A stretch of DNA of 64,000 nt, taken from assembly GCA_900169235.1 (NCBI GenBank), contig FWCC01000270.1, positions 1 to 64,000 on the forward strand. Direction: 5' to 3'. Positions 12,355 to 64,000 of the stretch are shown here, piece by piece. A model generated the notes under the pieces. It did not search any database. It saw only the letters and a program-made list of their open reading frames with translations, and was not told where the DNA came from. Within the stretch, counting starts at the first letter, position 1; every line of letters starts with the position of its first letter. Both the position numbers and the translations under genes were made by a program. This stretch comes from Zarea fungicola (lineage: Eukaryota; Ascomycota; Sordariomycetes; Hypocreales; Cordycipitaceae).

Positions 12355-13296
12355 TCAATTCTTTTCTGTATATTCATCCCGTCGCGCATTAAACACCATT
12401 TGTCCTACATGCCGCACGCCATACCGTCTCGCCACCTCTGCATGCTGCACGGCAAAGTAGTCGGCCAGCCCCGTCGCATGCAGCAGCTTGCCCGTGAGCG
12501 ACAGCGTGGATATGCGCGCCCACGACTCAATGTACACGAACCGCGCGCTCTCCACGGGCAGCACGTACACCATCTTGAGCAGGTGAATCGCCGCGGCGAC
12601 AAAGAACCCCGTGGCCGGACCGTTGGAGAAGACGAGCGACGGGTATGCCGTCGTCGTGCGACTACTCTTCTCTGGCCGCGAGAGCAGCGCCGGCACGATA
12701 TCCAGCACGCTGCGCAGCGCGGTGAGCGGCGTGGTGAGGATGCTCTGGTGGACGCGCCGCGCGCGGGTGACGAGGACGGCGTCGTGCGTGCCCGGGTTTG
12801 TCCCGCGCGATGCGCAGAGCCTCGTCAGGGCGTCCTCGTAGTCGAGCATGTGGTTGGCGGACATGGTGTCGCCGCTGGAGATGAGGTAGCGCCGGTGCGC
12901 GCCGGGCGGGAAGTCGCAGGTGCCGTCGTCCATCATCATGAGCATCTCCTTGGTGTGGCCGCCGGAGCCGAGGACGAAGAGGTGGTAGCCGCCGTGGACT
13001 TTGCCGCGAGAGGATGACCGAGGTGAGGCGGCCGCGGGCCATTGTAAACGGCGCTTTGCGGACAGCAGTTGGATGTGACGGACCTAGTAATAAATGTTAG
13101 AATGAAGCTTTCTCGGTGAGGGTAAAGAGTAATAAATTGGTGGGAGACTTGTACGTACGGTGATGAATATGATGGCTTGGATGCTGAGAGCCGTTATTGA
13201 GAGGAATATGACGGGCCAGGAAAAGAAGGACAATGCTGAGCCAATGGCAATGGCAACGCCAGCACCAACCAGGCCGGCCACGATAAGCACGCCCAT
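12355..13296 (-). CDS. ALG14: UDP-GlcNAc transferase subunit Alg14
   Basis: Exons 13296-13159 and 13083-12355 join across a 75-bp intron (donor GTACGT, acceptor TTACTAG) to give 288 residues. Exon 1 encodes a 46-residue, very hydrophobic N-terminal ER anchor. Exon 2 begins with a basic stretch and the Gly-rich VLGSGGHTKEML motif at about residues 83-94. The family blocks SNGPATG (LCNGPGT in other species), YIESWAR and LSLTGKLL follow. Alg14 recruits catalytic Alg13 to the ER membrane for the second step of dolichol-linked oligosaccharide assembly. The start chosen is the first ATG of the hydrophobic exon, and length fits the fungal family. A C-terminal LVF-type ending (MVFNARRDEYTEKN) completes it. 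Confidence 0.93.
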
Positions 13297-14288
13297 CTCA
13301 GCGAGATTCAAAACGATCGAGTTAGGAACCAGGTAGCTGCCTCAATGGCACGAAAGTTGTCGCCGTTTGAATAGAAGGTGACACGTATGAGGGTCGGCGC
13401 GTATTTCTTGTGGCAGCTTCCAGTCGCAAGCGCATACGTCTTTTAATGGAAACGGACAATCCTCCGTTCTAAAATCACGGCAAATTGTACCAAGTTAAAA
13501 AAGAAGAAAAAAAACGCCGTTCCTGTCAAGAAGTTATAGTTGAAGGAAAATGTTGTCAGTTTGATGTTTGGCTCAAATCACGGCAATCTAGCAACAGTGG
13601 GTCAAGCACAACTTAAACGCAACAAGTCTTCAACATATTATATCCCGATTCTTTTCCTTGTAAAAATTTAATTAAATAAAAAAAAACCCCTTTGTAAGAA
13701 GAATTCGCTTATTCCGTTGAAATTCAACATTTTCTTCCAAACAAGTAAAATCTCCAGAATCACCTATTCAATTCCCTCTCCCAAAGCCATCTAGCTTTAG
13801 GGTATTCTAGACAGCATGGCAAGCTAAGATCATTTGTCCCTCATTATCGAGCGTTTCTATATTTATTGGGAGAGGATATGACGTTGAAAATGTAGACTTC
13901 TACTTTACATTGGGGCGTCCAGCTCACTATGCTGTCCAGCTCGCTATGCATCCATGTTAGCTTTTTGCCTTAAAGGAGCCCTCAAATCAACACACTCTAA
14001 ATGGTATTGTGACAAAGGGCTTTGTAAGGGTTTGCAATAGTAATTCAATTTCAATGGTAATCTTGTAAATATAGTATCAAGGGTCCTGCGTTTTGATCCC
14101 AATCCCTTGGCCAAGGTCTCCCAATTTATGCCGACAAAGACCCCTTGAGCCCAAGGCTCTACTGATTTCCTCGCCATCATGTTGTGTAACCAATATCGTA
14201 ACCAACAACGTCCGGCGCCTCTGTGAGTCCTGTGTTGAGTAACTTGAGTCCCATGAAAAGTCCCGTGTGACATATATGAGCCTGAAAG
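13297..14288. other. Intergenic region at the edge of the AT-rich island
   Basis: About 1 kb upstream of ALG14 and downstream of the first secreted-protein gene. It contains A-rich runs near 13495-13515 and 13676-13690 but no supported coding sequence. Base composition falls toward AT from here to about 18.6 kb. Confidence 0.45.
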
Positions 14289-14681
14289 CTAGGCAGGTAT
14301 TCTAGAGACATCGCAACCCCAGTATTGTACCCCTGACCCTCCAAAAGCATTATACAGTCCTGCTGCCAACACGTTTGCCTGATGTGTAGGTGATTCTTTG
14401 TCAAAGACAAGCTTAGCAACCAATATGTTCTGATTGCCTCCTTTTCTTTTGGTCTCACAGCGCTCAATGTGGAATTTGAGCTTGCTTTTGTCAGCTTTGA
14501 CAGCTTCATTTATTCGTTTGTTCAGGCTGCCGCAAATGCTGCTCTCAGAACCATCGTCTACCCTCCCTCCGACAAGGTGGAAAGTATTGCCGTTGCTGCA
14601 GTGACTGACACCGCACTTTACCAAGGCAGTAGCGTTGGCACACGCAGTATATGCCGCCAAGAGGAAGATGGTTGCCTTCAT
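14289..14681 (-). CDS. Small secreted protein, family 1 member a (130 aa, five mature cysteines)
   Basis: Intronless frame of 130 residues. Residues 1-18 form a signal peptide (MKATIFLLAAYTACANAT). The mature part has five cysteines, in the contexts VKCG, SHC, SSICGS, ERC and WGCDV, and is rich in polar residues. It is clearly paralogous to the plus-strand gene at 18623-19021: the blocks DGSESSICGS and AFGGSGV-Y--CDVSR-P align without gaps and all five cysteines are conserved. I do not recognise the fold and propose no activity. Size and secretion resemble fungal effectors or secreted toxins, but that is inference. It is divergent from the family 2 gene at 15318. An odd cysteine count leaves one free thiol or suggests dimerisation. 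Confidence 0.8.
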   Translation of the reverse strand: MKATIFLLAAYTACANATALVKCGVSHCSNGNTFHLVGGRVDDGSESSICGSLNKRINEAVKADKSKLKFHIERCETKRKGGNQNILVAKLVFDKESPTHQANVLAAGLYNAFGGSGVQYWGCDVSRIPA

Positions 14682-15317
14682 TGCACAAGAGTAAATGCTT
14701 CAAGATAGATAGTAAGTAGTCGAAATATTAATGATATTCAAAAGGTTGGCAAGGCAAGAAGGGGATGAGGAGCCAAGCACTCGGCATTTAGTAGTCATTA
14801 CGTCTCAGGTTTTATAACCTGTTCTAATGTGAAGACAGAGGTTTATTGTTCAATAGGCTAAGCAGCCCCATTAGTTTCTAGTCGTATTTAACCCTAGTAT
14901 TAACCATAAATAGTGACAAGTTCCTCTTGTGATGGGGCCTGGGCCTATTTCGACGTAATGTCCCCTGCACTACACCTCGTGTAAGATTTCAGTTCGCATA
15001 GGACCCTCTGTCTTCAATACTAATCTTGTATAAGATTAAGAGGGTAATATTACTAAACACTAGTAGACCTAAGAATATTGCAAAGTAAAGGTTTAAGAAA
15101 AGTGTTTCAGGCCTAAAAGTATCTTACTATTACCTTTGTGGTAAGACAGCAAAGGCTAAAATTAGCAACTACTTTGTCCTCCAATAACCTACCTAAGAAA
15201 AGTATAAGACTCACATTATAACCAAAGGTTTCTTGCTATCTTCTCTTTTTCTTTCTCTTGGTGTATCCATCTGCGTCTAAACTCCAAGGCTTCTCAATTT
15301 CAATAGATCCAAAGTAC
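14682..15317. promoter_or_regulatory. Divergent promoter region of the left secreted-protein pair
   Basis: These 636 bp separate the start codons of two divergent secreted-protein genes. The stretch is AT-rich and ends in a T/C-rich tract (TCTTCTCTTTTTCTTTCTCT) about 60 bp before the family 2 ATG, which is typical of fungal promoters. It has no clear alignment with the corresponding region of the right-hand pair. Confidence 0.4.
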
Positions 15318-15715
15318 ATGATGCATTCCCGGTTTCTTTTTGCTGCTGCTATTCTCCCTCTAGCAATTTGCAGGCCGAGTCAGGAGGCAAATGAAAACAG
15401 CAATTTAGAAGGTTTGCAAGCCTTTACTTTCGTGGCTCGAGATATATGCTAATTAAAACAAGCTCGAGTCATAGGTGCCGCTTGCAGTGAATGCCTCCTG
15501 AACTGCGTCATTGTGTACAATAACCCGGTACTACAGTAAGTCTCTAACCCTTTCCCACATATTCTAGACACAAGTTAACAATATACAGGTGCCGTAAGTA
15601 CCCTTAGGCCAACCCCTTCCAATCATAACTAATAGAAATAGTCGCTGGCTGCGCTCATGAATGCGCTTCTGCCACTGCTGCGGACATCTACGATGCCTGT
15701 GGATATCCATTCTAG
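15318..15715 (+). CDS. Small Cys-rich secreted protein, family 2 member a, with 5-nt microexon
   Basis: Proposed exons 15318-15411, 15475-15535, 15589-15593 (5 nt) and 15642-15715 give 77 residues. All introns are GT-AG (63, 53 and 48 bp). Donors at introns 2 and 3 are GTAAGT, and TAACTAAT precedes the last acceptor. The first 18 residues are a signal peptide (MMHSRFLFAAAILPLAIC). The mature part has seven cysteines as CSECLLNC, then QCLAGCAHEC, then ACGYPF at the end. The 5-nt exon is needed: joining exon 2 directly to exon 4 hits a stop within seven codons, and using the earlier TTCTAG acceptor would require a 32-bp intron. The gene at 16814-17190 has the same structure, including the same exon 1 length, which is strong support. 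Function is unknown. No expression evidence is available here. Confidence 0.68.
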
Positions 15716-16422
15716 GGATAGAGTTAATTTACGGTTAGATTAAGGCAGTTGATTGGGGTCGAGCCGTAGATGGCGGCAGTTTAACTAGGTTAGATGGCCG
15801 GTTTAGCCGGGGAGCCCCTGTGACGAGGTGCGCTGTCACGAGCACATACTGGTAGTTGCTCCATTGAATTTCGTCGCCAGATGAATAAATTACACATGTA
15901 CAATGAATGTACATATGAATGCGTTGGGGGAGGGGTTCCGCAGTGCGTCGTGTCAGACTTTAACGGCTCGAGATTTGCCACAACACAACAGTCCTGAAAT
16001 AGCCCACCACCTACTCCATAGTACGCCATGACTAAACAAGTAAAACTAATTGTTATTGTCTTACGAGGGACCACATTCTGCCCAATAAACTATCTTTTTG
16101 CGTTACCGTGCACTATTAGTGATAAAGTTGTCTTCTATCTGCTCATTTAGCATGGTTCAGACGTCTATTCTAAAACTGTGTATTTATACACTAAACAATT
16201 AAAACAAGATATCAAGTGTCCCAATTGCACGCTTTTTGTATATTTGCCCGTATTTTTTTTCTTTTATCAAATCTGCTTACATTACTCGATTTTTCCTGCT
16301 TTCTTTCAGGCTCTTCCGACCTTCTATTGTGCCTTGGCGAGCAGTTCCTCCTCTCTAACCGCGACTATTTAACACACCTTTTCAACTTATAAAACACCAC
16401 CATTTTATGGATGATATTCATT
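15716..16422. other. Centre of the mirrored cassette, left part
   Basis: AT-rich sequence downstream of the family 2a gene. Both family 2 genes point toward this centre, so it should carry the 3' region of the left one. Frames at 15790-16074 (-) and 16178-16372 (+) do not look protein-like. No further gene is supported. Confidence 0.4.
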
Positions 16423-16734
16423 TTATTTTTTAGCAAGCCTCTTTGTTTTTAGGCATTCAGCCTTATTAAGTTCGACGGCTAGGGCTGGGTTACCGTACCC
16501 AAACCGGGTTACACGGCGCTTAAATTCATCTAACCTTTCACCATAAAGTACCACAACGGTTAAATTCTTTAAATCAGCTTTGGTATAATACCAGCTAACA
16601 TCCAATTGACGAAAAGGCTATGGTGTTTTAAAAGGTGATGAATAGAGCTGGTTATTTGGTGTAATTGAAGGCGTTGGCGTTGGAGGTTCTTCCACTTCTT
16701 CCTCAGCATCTATTGAGTGTAAACGGCGGAGTTT
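16423..16734 (-). pseudogene. Relic of a transposon-type protein with an in-frame TAG
   Basis: Reading the minus strand from 16734, an acidic stretch (DAEEEVEEPPTPTPS) leads through SSPFKTP to a TAG at 16620-16618. The same frame then continues as PFRQLDVSWYYTKADL and on to a Lys-rich end, LKTKRLAKK, and stop. The frame is coherent on both sides of the TAG, which is what a CAG-to-TAG change would leave. The frame is closed upstream by a TAA that could also derive from CAA. This pattern fits RIP acting on a repeated element. I cannot name the element family, and the mobile-element origin is inferred from composition and decay. Confidence 0.5.
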
Positions 16735-16813
16735 TTACACAACTTATTTATAATTGAAAGCACGCACTAGAGTATCTAGAACCTTGAATTGCTATCCTAC
16801 CACTAAACACCAT

Positions 16814-17190
16814 CTAAGCTTTTTGCTTGCAGTATGCTTCGACAGTACACACAGCGGCACACGCGCCCCCTTTATTTGTTAGCCTATTATATATTCTCTT
16901 ATTTTATTAACTTACATGCACTAATTTTTTAATTAGTTAGCAGATGTCAAGTCTATGAATGAATAATATGACTTACAAAGTTGCGTTATAGCCTTGCCTA
17001 GCGAGATTGAAAAGGCATGCCAGACACGCAGGATTATCGGCACGAGCTGTCTTATAATCAGTTCTATATCTAGTTAATAATAAGAAAAAGCCGTACCCTC
17101 GACCAACTCGGTTTTGCTATCCAAATCACCGATAGGGACGGAAAACACAACAGGTAAGAAACACCCAAGAATCACAGTACTGGGCTTCAT
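16814..17190 (-). CDS. Small Cys-rich secreted protein, family 2 member b, with 5-nt microexon
   Basis: Proposed exons, in transcription order, are 17190-17097, 17046-16977, 16920-16916 (5 nt) and 16869-16814, giving 74 residues. Introns are 50, 56 and 46 bp, all GT-AG. Donors two and three are GTAAGT, with CTAAC branch sites in introns 2 and 3. The signal peptide is MKPSTVILGCFLPVVFS. The mature part has five cysteines: ACLACLFN, then WGACAAVC, then EAYC before the end. It aligns with the gene at 15318-15715 as C-x2-C-L-x-N, 14-15 residues, C-A-x2-C, C. Both genes have a 94-nt first exon, the same intron phases and a 5-nt third exon. Retained frame and splice sites in an otherwise decayed region suggest a functional gene. 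Activity is unknown. Confidence 0.68.
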
Positions 17191-18622
17191 TTTCGTCGGG
17201 CAAATAAAGGTATGGCTTTATTAGGGGTAGAAAGGTGGTCAAGGTGTGATAATAGTATAAATCTTCAGTGTTTTGATGGCGGTTAGGGGTAGATATAATA
17301 GTATTCTCTTGTCCCATTGAGTGAGGTAGCCTAGAATATATACCTTGGTTGAGTCGTAGAGTGGAACACTGCTAATTAGTAAACTCTTGACAGTGAGATT
17401 ATAATTCATAGAAGCATTTTCCTATTTTTAGTCTATAAAATAAATATAGAGCGTGAATTAAACATGAAGTTTTAGAATAACTAAGAACTGCAGTAAGCGA
17501 CGAACTCGAGTCATCTTGTCTAGGATCCACCCCTGCCAGTAATTTCACGGTTCCGTTACGACTACTTATCCACAGCTTACCAATGGGGCTTCTTTACTGG
17601 TCCTGGACAAACATAGTGTTACGCAGGGCAGTTACTAGTCATGGAACAGGTGTTCATTGATGGAGAGTGTGGCCTGTCTGGTGGCCAGACTTGGAGATAC
17701 TTCCTAACTCCTACAGGGTGTCCACCAACAGGTCAAACCCCAGTCTAAATTATATTAACTAAAGGGTGCAGCCATTAGTAAAGTGGCTGTTGGTTGTTCC
17801 TGTCGAAACTTGTCACCTAGTCTGGCTTTGCTGATTAGTGGGCTTCAGCTTATTATAACGGGACTGTGGCAAACCTTGAGAGTTATAGAAATGACACGAG
17901 ACTACTAGTTCATCCTGCACATCCTAGTTATAAGTCCCATTTCTCCTATGTAGGGCTGTAATAAAGTAGCCTTAGTGTTAGCGTCTACTTTTATTTTACG
18001 CCATAGCGGGACTGCGGCAAACCTTATAACCCGAACTGGCAATAATAAGAAATGACACGAGACTACTAGTTCATCTTGCATATCCTAGTTATGAGGCGCA
18101 TGTCTCATGCATAGGGCGGTAATAAAACAATCTTGGGGTTAGTGTCTACTTTCGTCTTTTTTCCTCAGCGCTAGCTAGTCATTGCTCTGTCCTTTTGGAT
18201 ATGGAATTACTTTGCTGGGTAAATGATCAATTGCCGCACTGGTGCCAGTATACAAAGAGCATGAGAGCTTACGTCTCGAGTTAGCCGAGTAGCGCTTACA
18301 CGCAACAAGTAGCGAACCATTGGTTCCATCCCCGGCAGTTGAGTTCGTACTTGCCCATCACATACCAAATTAGGGTCAAGTAACCAAAACAACTCAATTT
18401 CTATACTTTCTAGCAGTGGGTAACTTGGATTCTTCGGCATAAAGTTCTATTACACTGAATTCTATATTAGTACTACTCTGCTTACATAGAGGGAGATATA
18501 TATAGTTTTACAAATATATATATATATATCATAACCCAGGACTAGAATCTACAAATTCTTCATCTATTCTCACCAGCTTCAGCAACCTCTTCTTACCATT
18601 TCCCATTACATCTCTTTTCAAA
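17191..18622. other. Divergent intergenic region of the right secreted-protein pair
   Basis: These 1.4 kb lie between the start codons of family 2b (-) and family 1b (+), more than twice the equivalent left interval. Part of the excess is a 148-bp-period tandem duplication at 17859-18156. A (TA)n run sits at about 18510-18529, followed by a C/T-rich leader before the 18623 ATG. A 35-codon frame at 17641 is not convincing. Confidence 0.45.
17859..18156. repeat. Two tandem copies of a ~140-bp unit, period 148 bp
   Basis: Copy 1 spans about 17859-17995 and copy 2 about 18007-18156. Both start CGGGACTG-GGCAAACCTT, share GAAATGACACGAGACTACTA followed by GTTCATC-TGCA-ATCCTAG, and end in GTCTACTTT-. 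Copy 2 has a short insertion after CAAACCTT and scattered substitutions. It lies in the promoter interval of the right-hand secreted-protein pair. Confidence 0.85.
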
Positions 18623-19021
18623 ATGAAGACCATCAGCTTACTACTCTTTGGAGCGTGCATCCCAGCAGTACTCTCCACTGCGCAAGTTGCTTGCGTTGAT
18701 ACAAAGCATTGTACGGATGGCAATGAGTACACCATTGTGGGAACAAACATTGCCGATGGGTCTGAATCAAGCATTTGCGGCAGTATTGAGTCAACACTGA
18801 AAAAGGCGATAAATAACAACGGAAAATCAGTTATTCTCCGATTTGACAAGTGCGGCACAAGGCGACAGAACGGCGGGCAAAGCATTCTAGTCGCCTACTT
18901 GAAAATGGACAAGCAATCGCCGACTTTCCAGTCCAATCTGCTGACGGGTGCCGTCAACACCGCTTTTGGAGGCTCGGGCGTTTCTTATAAAGCGTGCGAC
19001 GTTTCCCGCTTGCCAAGTTAG
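18623..19021 (+). CDS. Small secreted protein, family 1 member b (132 aa, five mature cysteines)
   Basis: Intronless frame of 132 residues with signal peptide MKTISLLLFGACIPAVLS. The five mature cysteines lie in the contexts VAC, KHC, SSICGS, DKC and KACDV and correspond one to one with the paralogue at 14289-14681. Shared blocks are DGSESSICGS, a QSILVA/QNILVA strand, QSPT/ESPT and AFGGSGV-Y--CDVSR. The ATG context AAAATGAAG is a good fungal start. Together with the neighbouring family 2b gene (divergent, 1.4 kb) it mirrors the left pair. There is no recognised domain. It might be an effector, antimicrobial or toxin-type protein, but nothing in the sequence decides this. Confidence 0.82.
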   Translation: MKTISLLLFGACIPAVLSTAQVACVDTKHCTDGNEYTIVGTNIADGSESSICGSIESTLKKAINNNGKSVILRFDKCGTRRQNGGQSILVAYLKMDKQSPTFQSNLLTGAVNTAFGGSGVSYKACDVSRLPS

Positions 19022-19343
19022 AGGATGAAGCGTCATGCAAATGTCTGAGATGATTTATCAGACAGGCCTCGTGGGAGTTGGATCATGGAGCGATTGAGGA
19101 GCATCCGGAGAGTTTTGAACTTTAAAAGTATGCTGTTTAGGTGAAGGTACTTACTCCGCATTCCAGTGCGCCGTCTACCTGCAGCTCTGATATACTGTTT
19201 CTGTTCTATAGTGCTTTCTGGTCTATATAGTAGCTAGTGTTGTTAGTAGGAAATCGTTGGGTTATTCTGTGCTCAAGTTGTGCTTAAATGGATGGAAGAA
19301 ACTCAGATTATCGAGATTATTCTATTACAATGTAGATGGAATA
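19022..19343. other. Convergent 3' region after the secreted-protein island
   Basis: About 320 bp between the family 1b stop and the stop of the minus-strand GTPase. Nothing beyond presumed 3' untranslated sequence is seen. Confidence 0.45.
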
Positions 19344-61949: not shown

Positions 61950-62039
61950 CGATAGTACCTGTATCTGCGTCGCTTGCGTATCTAGGTTTCGTAACTTCGG
62001 AATAAGTCAATATCACTAATTTACATCTAATTGATCTCA

Positions 62040-64000
62040 AAACTTGTATAGAGCTTCTTAGGCATTTATATTTAATATAATATAAATATTAGATAAATCT
62101 AGAGCTATTGCTGTGGCTGCTACTTATGCCTATCTCTTAGGTAAGACTGTTACACGCATAACTTATGGGAACCCTGCCCTTCCTTATAGGATGACTATCT
62201 ATAAGGTGGCTCATTTACACTATGCTATTAAGCCCCTAATAAAGAAATATATCTATTTATTAAAATCTAGGAAGAAGCTTCCTTCTTCTAGTAATAAGGG
62301 TAGTTATTTACCTGCTCTAATGGATAGTAAAGAGTATGCTTTAGTTACCTTTATCTAAGGTATTGAAAAAAGTGTATTTGCTATTATTGAGCGTTGTATT
62401 TATAACTATGCTAGTTTTCTATAAAAATATTATATTGAAGGCCCTTAACTTAAGGTCTTATAGGCCTAGGTTCAAAGGTTTAAATAGCGCTATCTAGAGT
62501 TATAGTATAAGAGTCTAAAGGTCAAGGAAGTCATTAGGGCCGGGGTAGAGCTCAATCTCTCTAGCCTAGAAGCCTGGTACTAGGAGTTTAAGGCTATTGT
62601 TAATGAGTTATATATAAATTTTGTAAATCTTTGGAATTTTAATGAAATACCTCTCTAGCTAGACTAGGCAGATAGTAGCATAAGGATATTCTTAACCTAG
62701 ATGAAGAAGAATACTTGACTTATAATATTCTAATTAGGGAATAAGGAATCGCTTATATCTATCGATATAGTTAGTATAGGAGGAAAATCTATACCTTCCT
62801 TCCTTATCCTTATAGTAAAAGTTATTTTAGAGGAATATGCTATAGCTACTATTAATAAGAGCGTTATCTTAATGTCTATATTATTAGGTTTTAATAATGC
62901 TTATAGAGCCTAGCAATAGCTATAGTATTTTAATTATTACTTATTTATTTAAAGTGATGATTTTTATGGCTTTTTAATTAAGGCTTGGTTTAGGTATACT
63001 CTTAATATTATATAGGAAAGATAAAGCTATGAGGTAGTAAATATCGCCTTATAGAAGATATAGAAAGTAATGCTAGTATTTTGAATGCTTATTATAGATG
63101 GATTTTCTGCCTATAAAGACCTTGATTTTATATGGTATTATTATATATTTAATATTATCCCTTTCTGCCTGCCTTTATATATTAGCCATCTAATGTAGCC
63201 TCTTAATGTTAAAGTTTACTAGTATCTTAAAAGGGAATAATGGGCAGCCTTAGGGGATTTTATTTAAGCTAGCGGTATATAGATCTTATAATATGATTTC
63301 TTAAACTAGTGGAATAGGCTCTATAAGGCAGTATTTAAAGCATGCTATATATATGCCGGATTTAAGAAGGCGGGACTAATGTTAATAGATCGGGAAGCTA
63401 TATTAGGGCCTCTTTATTAGGCTGTAAAGTATCTAGAAGAGCCCTTATTCCCTAAGATCCTCTAGAGCTAAGCTATTATACTATGCAAGGCCAAAAGGGA
63501 CCTTACTATAATATAGAAGCAGTGAAAGTTAGATATCTTAAGTAGCCTTATAAGAGTAACTATCTTATATGCTAAGGCCTGTCTTGACCTAGCTATTATT
63601 ATATAATTAGCCTAAAAGCATATTATTTAATTATAATAAGAACGCTTAGCTCTAGTGGCTTACTGCGCTTAAACTCGCCGTTAAATTCAGGTTAATAATA
63701 GGGCCTTTATTATAAAGGAATTATATGAGAAAGTTACTATATGAGCTTATAAGGACTAAAATAAGGAAGTAATAAAGTAAAAGTGTAAGTAAGAAGATCT
63801 TTTCTATTAACTTTAAAAAGAAGCATTAGATGAGAAAAGGGAGATTAAAAGGCCATAGATCTACAGCTAGATAGCAGTAGTAAAGTCATAAGTAGTTAGA
63901 GTAGTTAAAAATAGTATTCTTTTATAAGAAAATTGCAATTAAGTAATTCTAAAAGAGGATAAGGTGGCTATTATAAAATTATAGGAAATATAGAAAAAGG
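62040..64000 (+). mobile_element. Degenerate Fot1/Pogo-type (DDE) transposon, RIP-like decay, truncated by window end
   Basis: Although full of stops, the plus strand still shows Pogo-family transposase blocks. These include LGNKESL then GGKSIPSFLIL (about 62738-62815), IIDGFSAYKDLDFIWYY (about 63095-63145), and NIIPFCLPLYISHLM then PLNV (to about 63210). AGFKKAGLMLIDREAI follows at about 63357. The expected DGH-SH catalytic Asp region is recognisable. Several stops are TAG exactly where the family has Gln (SHLLQPLDV, VYQ-LK), so they are CAG-to-TAG changes, the mark of RIP. The very high TA content of the whole tail agrees. The left boundary may be near 61.9-62.1 kb and the right end is outside. 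An open frame at 62113-62358 is part of the decayed element. Confidence 0.75.

Follow-up and report, generated by a model that had tools for sequence, protein, structure and literature searches.

A recurrent divergent pair of small secreted-protein genes, proposed to encode lineage-specific and possibly disulfide-linked partners

Within the first 64,000 nucleotides of contig FWCC01000270.1 (the whole stretch analysed, hereafter the window), positions 14289-19021 carry four small secreted-protein genes in the order F1(-) F2(+), transposon relic, F2(-) F1(+), that is, as two divergent pairs in mirror order. F1 and F2 are labels for two different protein families, whose signal peptides were judged by eye, and the halves of this interval are referred to as the left and the right unit. 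In the genome searched (43,144,919 bases in 456 contigs), each of the five F2 genes found lies head-to-head with an F1 gene, and all ten genes are open. It is proposed that F1 and F2 form a lineage-specific, co-expressed partner pair, possibly linked by a disulfide bond, and their sequences and arrangement suggest that the two proteins probably work together, with a good deal of doubt left. An earlier note on this DNA had described four genes mirrored around a mobile-element relic, which the open reading frames (ORFs), the exon models and the similarity of the relic to a transposon elsewhere in the genome bear out. Its observation that two unrelated secreted families stand divergent and intact in both halves also holds, and the pairing is kept in 5/5 units and in one further pair from Zarea fungicola.

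The recurrence emerged from searches with different queries. A genome search with F1 returned the five main-type places and a remote one (C389), six in all, and a DNA search with the island found C148, C144 and C451, each matching F2 and F1 parts in the same order. F2 searches with two different queries located F2 at the five units only, besides a match at C99 (expectation value, E, 0.15) that was put down to chance, as the ORFs there gave no convincing F2 and no F1. The start-to-start gaps are 636 bp in the left unit, 1432 bp in the right unit, 1258 bp at C148, 1491 bp at C144 and 901 bp at C451. Intergenic DNA of the right unit, C148 and C144 aligns well, its longer pieces at 66-81%; C451 and the left unit have hardly any alignable intergenic DNA in common with these three. 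Alignment of this extent would be expected if F1 and F2 had unrelated jobs and a segmental duplication had copied a few-kb block whole, and C148 and C144 also share some sequence past the F2 end, which indicates that blocks were copied. Such hitch-hiking is nevertheless considered a rather unlikely explanation: there are five units, the left one very old, none was found with either gene lost or broken, and the cysteine parity of both families has been kept through a deep split, although the left F2 has two more cysteines.

The age of the left unit is evident from protein comparisons. The right F1 is 69-76% identical to the F1 proteins of C148, C144 and C451, whereas the left unit reaches only 43-45% (F1) and 26-31% (F2) against the other four copies and sits on a long branch in both trees. 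Between the two halves of the interval, F1 is 45% identical (E 6e-39) and F2 27%. The left and right F2 are considered homologous because exon 1 (94 nt) and exon 3 (5 nt) have equal lengths in all five copies, and because the left F2 matches a profile of the six other F2 sequences over its first 47 residues (E 3e-5 in a single comparison, probability 73%). Selection evidently acts among the four right-type units. In six comparisons by the NG86 method, the right-type F1 genes gave nonsynonymous divergence (dN) of 0.16-0.26 and synonymous divergence (dS) of 0.39-2.06, with dN/dS of 0.13-0.44. For the right-type F2 genes dN was 0.16-0.36, while dS was 0.73-5.1 in five of six comparisons and undefined in one, and dN/dS was 0.05-0.44 in those five. 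The ratios were computed from the NG86 values, some dS being near saturation; YN00 estimates failed for some pairs, and the copies were left undated.

These distances also bear on the origin of the mirror layout. A recent inverted duplication, or an artefact of assembly, would give just such a clean mirror image around the relic, yet divergence between the halves amounts to 55% in F1 and 73% in F2, and at the DNA level they align only in one short match inside F1 (30 nt at 83%), the two window intergenic regions giving chance-level matches only. This explanation is hardly credible: the long branch of the left unit and its low identity to the other copies in both families argue against a recent mirror copy. 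The simple inverted duplication around a mobile element that the earlier note had assumed therefore has to be given up, since the right F1 resembles those of C148, C144 and C451 far more closely than that of its mirror half. The term inverted duplication fits the layout and not a recent event; the mirror may have arisen by an old inverted duplication or by two units meeting through insertion.

The relic itself is similar to a portion of a transposase gene carried by an element of about 2 kb at C153 (L022 4426-6434). This element has 101-bp terminal inverted repeats that are 99% identical, and stops interrupt its transposase gene, which is of the DDE_1 type. One of the two pieces of this element that were tested matches Pfam DDE_1, at 22.8 bits against a cut-off of 22, and we take the relic to be a pogo/Fot1-like transposon. 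It looks old because a genome search with the relic region found only two other places, at 68-71%. A mobile gene cassette with defined ends was also considered, since the alignments of the right unit to C148 and to C144 end at nearly the same point, around 19204-19205. It was dropped because, of six inverted-repeat pairs detected, none sits at the ends of the unit, because the sequence shared by C148 and C144 extends further on the F2 side, and because C451 matches over a shorter length. A promoter repeat of the mimp type was likewise rejected, as intergenic positions 17840-18160 matched only themselves in a genome search that skips very common words. In the same kind of search an intergenic stretch from C144 found counterparts at C148 and in the window, together with a 79-bp match at C123 (C123:105499-105577, within L025, against L018 4711-4791, at 78%). 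Genome searches placed no F1 or F2 at this C123 site, and its ORFs gave no lead.

F2 is distinguished by its gene structure. In addition to the constant exons 1 and 3, all five copies have introns of 46-58 nt with GT..AG ends, as well as stop codons, and the 5-nt micro-exon stands in the context AG-NNNNN-GTAAGT in 5/5. When a CTAAY branch site upstream is required as well, this stricter pattern has a single occurrence in the window, at the right F2, against 0.01 expected, and the F2 genes of C148, C144 and C451 fit it too; the left F2, with a slightly different branch site, falls outside it. The micro-exons of the remote units lie at L017 7195-7199, L018 3823-3827 and L019 5248-5252. When skipping of the micro-exon is computed, all five F2 genes shift frame and acquire a different tail in which the conserved C-terminal cysteine spacing is gone; that part then holds two to three cysteines at other spacing in the four right-type copies and none in the left F2. 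A version that stays in frame without the micro-exon, by way of an acceptor site 14 nt before exon 4 that was noticed by eye in each of the four right-type copies, was set aside as unlikely because the conserved CTAAC branch site would fall in the exon and because both Zarea F2 proteins fit the micro-exon version. Indeed, the Phe-Ala-Trp-Gly stretch that depends on the 5-nt exon in the genome copies is present in the database proteins g4783 and g1834. Such a conserved micro-exon in a gene family of filamentous fungi is of separate interest in itself.

The F2 product would be a prepro-peptide. Glu-Ala-Arg is invariant in 7/7 aligned F2 sequences, ahead of the cysteine-rich part, and is read as a putative processing site; 38-48 residues follow it, with five or seven cysteines in each of the seven F2 sequences counted (leaving out P0004, which was read through an intron). 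Pfam searches with F2 gave weak, scattered rows for single members (best E 0.021), and a search of Protein Data Bank (PDB) sequences gave one at E 0.14.

F1, in turn, is modelled as a small alpha/beta protein. Beyond the signal peptide the model is mostly confident, with five strands and two helices (predicted local distance difference test score, pLDDT, 81; predicted template modelling score, pTM, 0.73). Fold searches with it returned only widespread alpha/beta folds at weak scores, so that a KP6 or Zt-KP6 fold is neither shown nor excluded. Neither F1 of the window matched Pfam, and across the F1 members the rows were weak and scattered (best E 0.071). NCBIfam rows were scattered, and one to a bacterial enzyme model (E 8.3e-4, for a single F1 member of 14) was judged a chance match. 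No PDB sequence matched the F1 profile, and the left F1 alone gave one at E 7.3. Nine of nine distinct main-type F1 proteins have five cysteines, and six of these have a known F2 neighbour.

A remote F1 lineage was detected as well. An intact relative of 126 aa with six cysteines is encoded at C389 (L020 4950-5330, minus strand), and P0012 and P0013 are two further relatives of it. All three have six cysteines; for P0013, five were counted after residue 18, the sixth being residue 17, after a shorter leader. In addition, a search with a remote query found a decayed relative with three in-frame stop codons at C410:93559-93870(+), within L024. In the alignment, Cys24, Cys52, Cys77 and Cys125 of F1 are invariant across the main and remote lineages, and one further cysteine (Cys30 in the right copy, Cys28 in the left copy) belongs to the main lineage only.

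Cysteine counts form the basis of the proposed link between the partners. Both members of the six known pairs (the five units and g4782/g4783 of Zarea fungicola) have odd counts, five in F1 and five or seven in F2, and one free cysteine per partner is proposed because the counts of the mature proteins are odd. Cys30 is left over after the four shared with the remote lineage, which makes it the candidate free cysteine of F1. In the proposed mechanism, F1 would be secreted and fold as a small alpha/beta protein, and F2 would be secreted as a prepro-peptide and cut after Glu-Ala-Arg to release a cysteine-rich peptide of 38-48 residues. The shared promoter region would drive both genes, so that the proteins would be made together; the free cysteine of F1 (Cys30 in the right copy) may then bond the free cysteine of F2, and the resulting heterodimer might act outside the cell, in contact with another organism. 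The disulfide link is put forward tentatively, as a possibility with the balance of probability against it. A far-reaching version, in which Hypocreales that attack fungi secrete a modular two-component weapon made of unit-specific disulfide heterodimers, with five diverged cassettes in this genome, and in which micro-exon splicing sets the C-terminal tail of F2 and could switch the partner on or off, is an improbable speculation.

Among database proteins, a search with a single F1 sequence found the query's own protein only, while an F1 profile search gave ten proteins, the query's own included, of which two are from Zarea fungicola and three of the other seven are identical to genome copies; the F2 profile search gave three proteins, two from Zarea fungicola. 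Since the protein search needs shared 5-residue words, the lineage restriction seen is a lower bound on the spread of the families. Zarea belongs to the Cordycipitaceae, Hypocreales, and we take Zarea fungicola to be the same species as Lecanicillium fungicola. Its proteins g4782 (F1) and g4783 (F2) have consecutive numbers and are both listed on a 17,930-bp contig, which suggests that they share one contig. C144 is closest to them in both families, with 86% identity to g4783 and 90% to g4782. In the trees, g4783 pairs with the C144 F2 (91/94), and g4782 groups with the C144 F1 and one other protein (86/99); support is moderate, and neither grouping is starred. With this pair taken as coming from a second species, the partnership is plausible and gains support from it and from the recurrence within the genome.

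Several points weigh against a partnership. Block copying carries both genes along without joint function, and co-retention in 5/5 units is therefore moderate evidence only. Remote F1 relatives exist without a detected F2: scanning beside C389 and C410 for the micro-exon pattern and a CxxC motif gave nothing convincing, although a scan of this kind has little power to detect a peptide gene that has diverged. For the Zarea proteins g6616 (F1) and g1834 (F2) the searches returned no annotated partner; as small multi-exon genes are easily missed, these two are counted neither for nor against the pairing. Linkage, which the earlier note had made the touchstone of its reading, thus stands for F2 in the genome and is less clear for F1 and for these two proteins. 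At C148, F2 has diverged more than F1, identity to the remaining right-type copies being 52-56% for F2 and 70-75% for F1. For the left pair, selection could be measured only poorly: dS was undefined in five of eight comparisons and dN/dS was 0.19, 0.23 and 0.81 in the other three, so that the case for this pair is carried by its open frames and retained cysteines. The cysteine parity depends on cleavage positions assigned by eye, and because of their common ancestry the sequences are not independent. Finally, the model of the Zarea F2, built from two sequences, is poor and helical (pLDDT 56.8).

The co-occurrence in 5/5 units and the small, cysteine-rich nature of both proteins would also suit a toxic protein with its modulator, in which one product harms other cells, the other inhibits it or guards the producer, and copies are tolerated only as pairs. 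Against this, both products look secreted, by sequence neither could be convincingly assigned to a known family or a solved structure, and solitary F1-like genes exist, though remote. To our knowledge a secreted immunity protein would be unusual. A toxin with its modulator is accordingly regarded as quite improbable, and the reading of F1 and F2 as cooperating partners is retained.

The earlier note knew of no described system with this pairing, a statement that needs correction for the organisation of the genes, since head-to-head effector pairs are known, and not for the proteins, which differ (PMC10942635, PMC8190069, PMC11302675). In Fusarium oxysporum f. sp. lycopersici, Avr2(SIX3) and SIX5 are described as adjacent divergent genes with a common promoter whose products function together (PMC10942635, PMC9373983). 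F1 and F2 are likewise a pair of dissimilar small secreted proteins encoded by divergent neighbouring genes, but they are other proteins than Avr2 and SIX5 and showed no sequence match to them, Avr2 being ToxA-like and the mature F2 a peptide of 38-48 residues. SIX8 and PSE1 of Fusarium oxysporum lie head-to-head with an intergenic distance of 1057 bp (PMC8190069), and SIX8 and PSL1 were found by experiment to form a heterodimer joined by a single disulfide, to which each partner contributes a free cysteine (PMC10942635). A link of this kind is what is proposed for F1 and F2. It is further reported that within one Fusarium genome pairs from the same two structural families recur, namely Avr2-SIX5, SIX8-PSL1 and the suspected SIX7-SIX12 (PMC10942635), much as F1-F2 pairs recur within one genome.

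The proteins themselves are different ones. SIX8 is ToxA-like and PSL1 KP6-like by model (PMC10942635). The mature F2 is too short for a ToxA-like partner in comparison with SIX8 50-141 (PMC10942635) and is helical in a low-confidence model, and F1 is alpha/beta with two helices. The KP6-like fold is described, for SIX5 and SIX14, as two helices with four to six strands (PMC10942635); the F1 model matches this description, the topology being very common. None of the ten proteins of the F1 profile search (E up to 1, shared 5-residue words needed) is named SIX5 or PSE1. The SIX8-PSE1 intergenic region carries a mimp repeat, whereas for the 321-bp duplicated stretch in the right unit a search that skips very common words returned that stretch alone. 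AsCEP19-AsCEP20 of Alternaria solani is described as a lineage-specific, co-expressed, head-to-head secreted pair, at one locus in a plant pathogen (PMC11302675), compared with five F1-F2 units in one genome, and is likened here by description only. The F1-F2 units thus have adjacent divergent small secreted genes with the pairing kept in 5/5 F2 loci and one Zarea pair, and are organised like Avr2-SIX5, SIX8-PSE1/PSL1 and AsCEP19-AsCEP20, while no match was found that relates them to the Fusarium pairs. They were not placed in the Fusarium pair families, as no homology turned up and F2 lacks the size of a ToxA-like partner. No description of an F1-F2 pair was found among the titles and opening lines of abstracts returned by literature searches on effector pairs and mushroom pathogens, which is no proof that it is unpublished.

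The head-to-head effector pairs cited here come from plant pathogens, and in some plant-infecting fungi the layout seen for F1-F2 marks proteins that act as partners. Five diverged units in one genome would permit tests of partner specificity, co-evolution and mix-and-match combinations. The units would likewise help to trace secreted partner proteins in fungi, among them the mushroom pathogen Lecanicillium fungicola, the host interaction of which is far from fully characterized (PMC6509529).

Table 1. Features of the two divergent units in the window
Feature	Position	Strand	Description
F1, left unit	14289..14681	-	Intronless ORF, 130 aa, 5 cysteines after signal peptide
Left intergenic region	14682..15317	.	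636 bp, common to the left pair; putative two-way promoter
F2, left unit	15318..15715	+	Exons 15318-15411, 15463-15535, 15589-15593, 15642-15715; 81-aa prepro-peptide, 7 cysteines after Glu-Ala-Arg
Micro-exon, left F2	15589..15593	+	5 nt
Relic of pogo/Fot1-like DNA transposon (part of transposase gene)	16339..16722	-	Similar to the C153 element; name pogo/Fot1 presumed
F2, right unit	16814..17190	-	Exons 17190-17097, 17046-16977, 16920-16916, 16869-16814; 74-aa prepro-peptide, 5 cysteines after Glu-Ala-Arg
Micro-exon, right F2	16916..16920	-	5 nt; own CTAAC branch site upstream, GTAAGT donor downstream
Right intergenic region	17191..18622	.	1432 bp; large parts align with C148 and C144 intergenic DNA, hardly any with C451 or left unit
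Imperfect direct duplication of about 150 bp	17855..18152	.	Inside right intergenic region; self-match only in genome search
F1, right unit	18623..19021	+	Intronless ORF, 132 aa, 5 cysteines after signal peptide; predicted beta-beta-alpha-beta-beta-alpha-beta fold

The units lie in an island of about 6 kb with a low content of guanine plus cytosine (GC), 0.38-0.45 in the 1-kb bins of positions 13001-19000 compared with 0.60 and 0.52 in the next bins. By Pfam, the island is flanked on the left by a gene with an Alg14 domain and on the right by a Ras-like gene. Elsewhere in the window, GC falls to 30% at positions 62001-64000, near the contig end.

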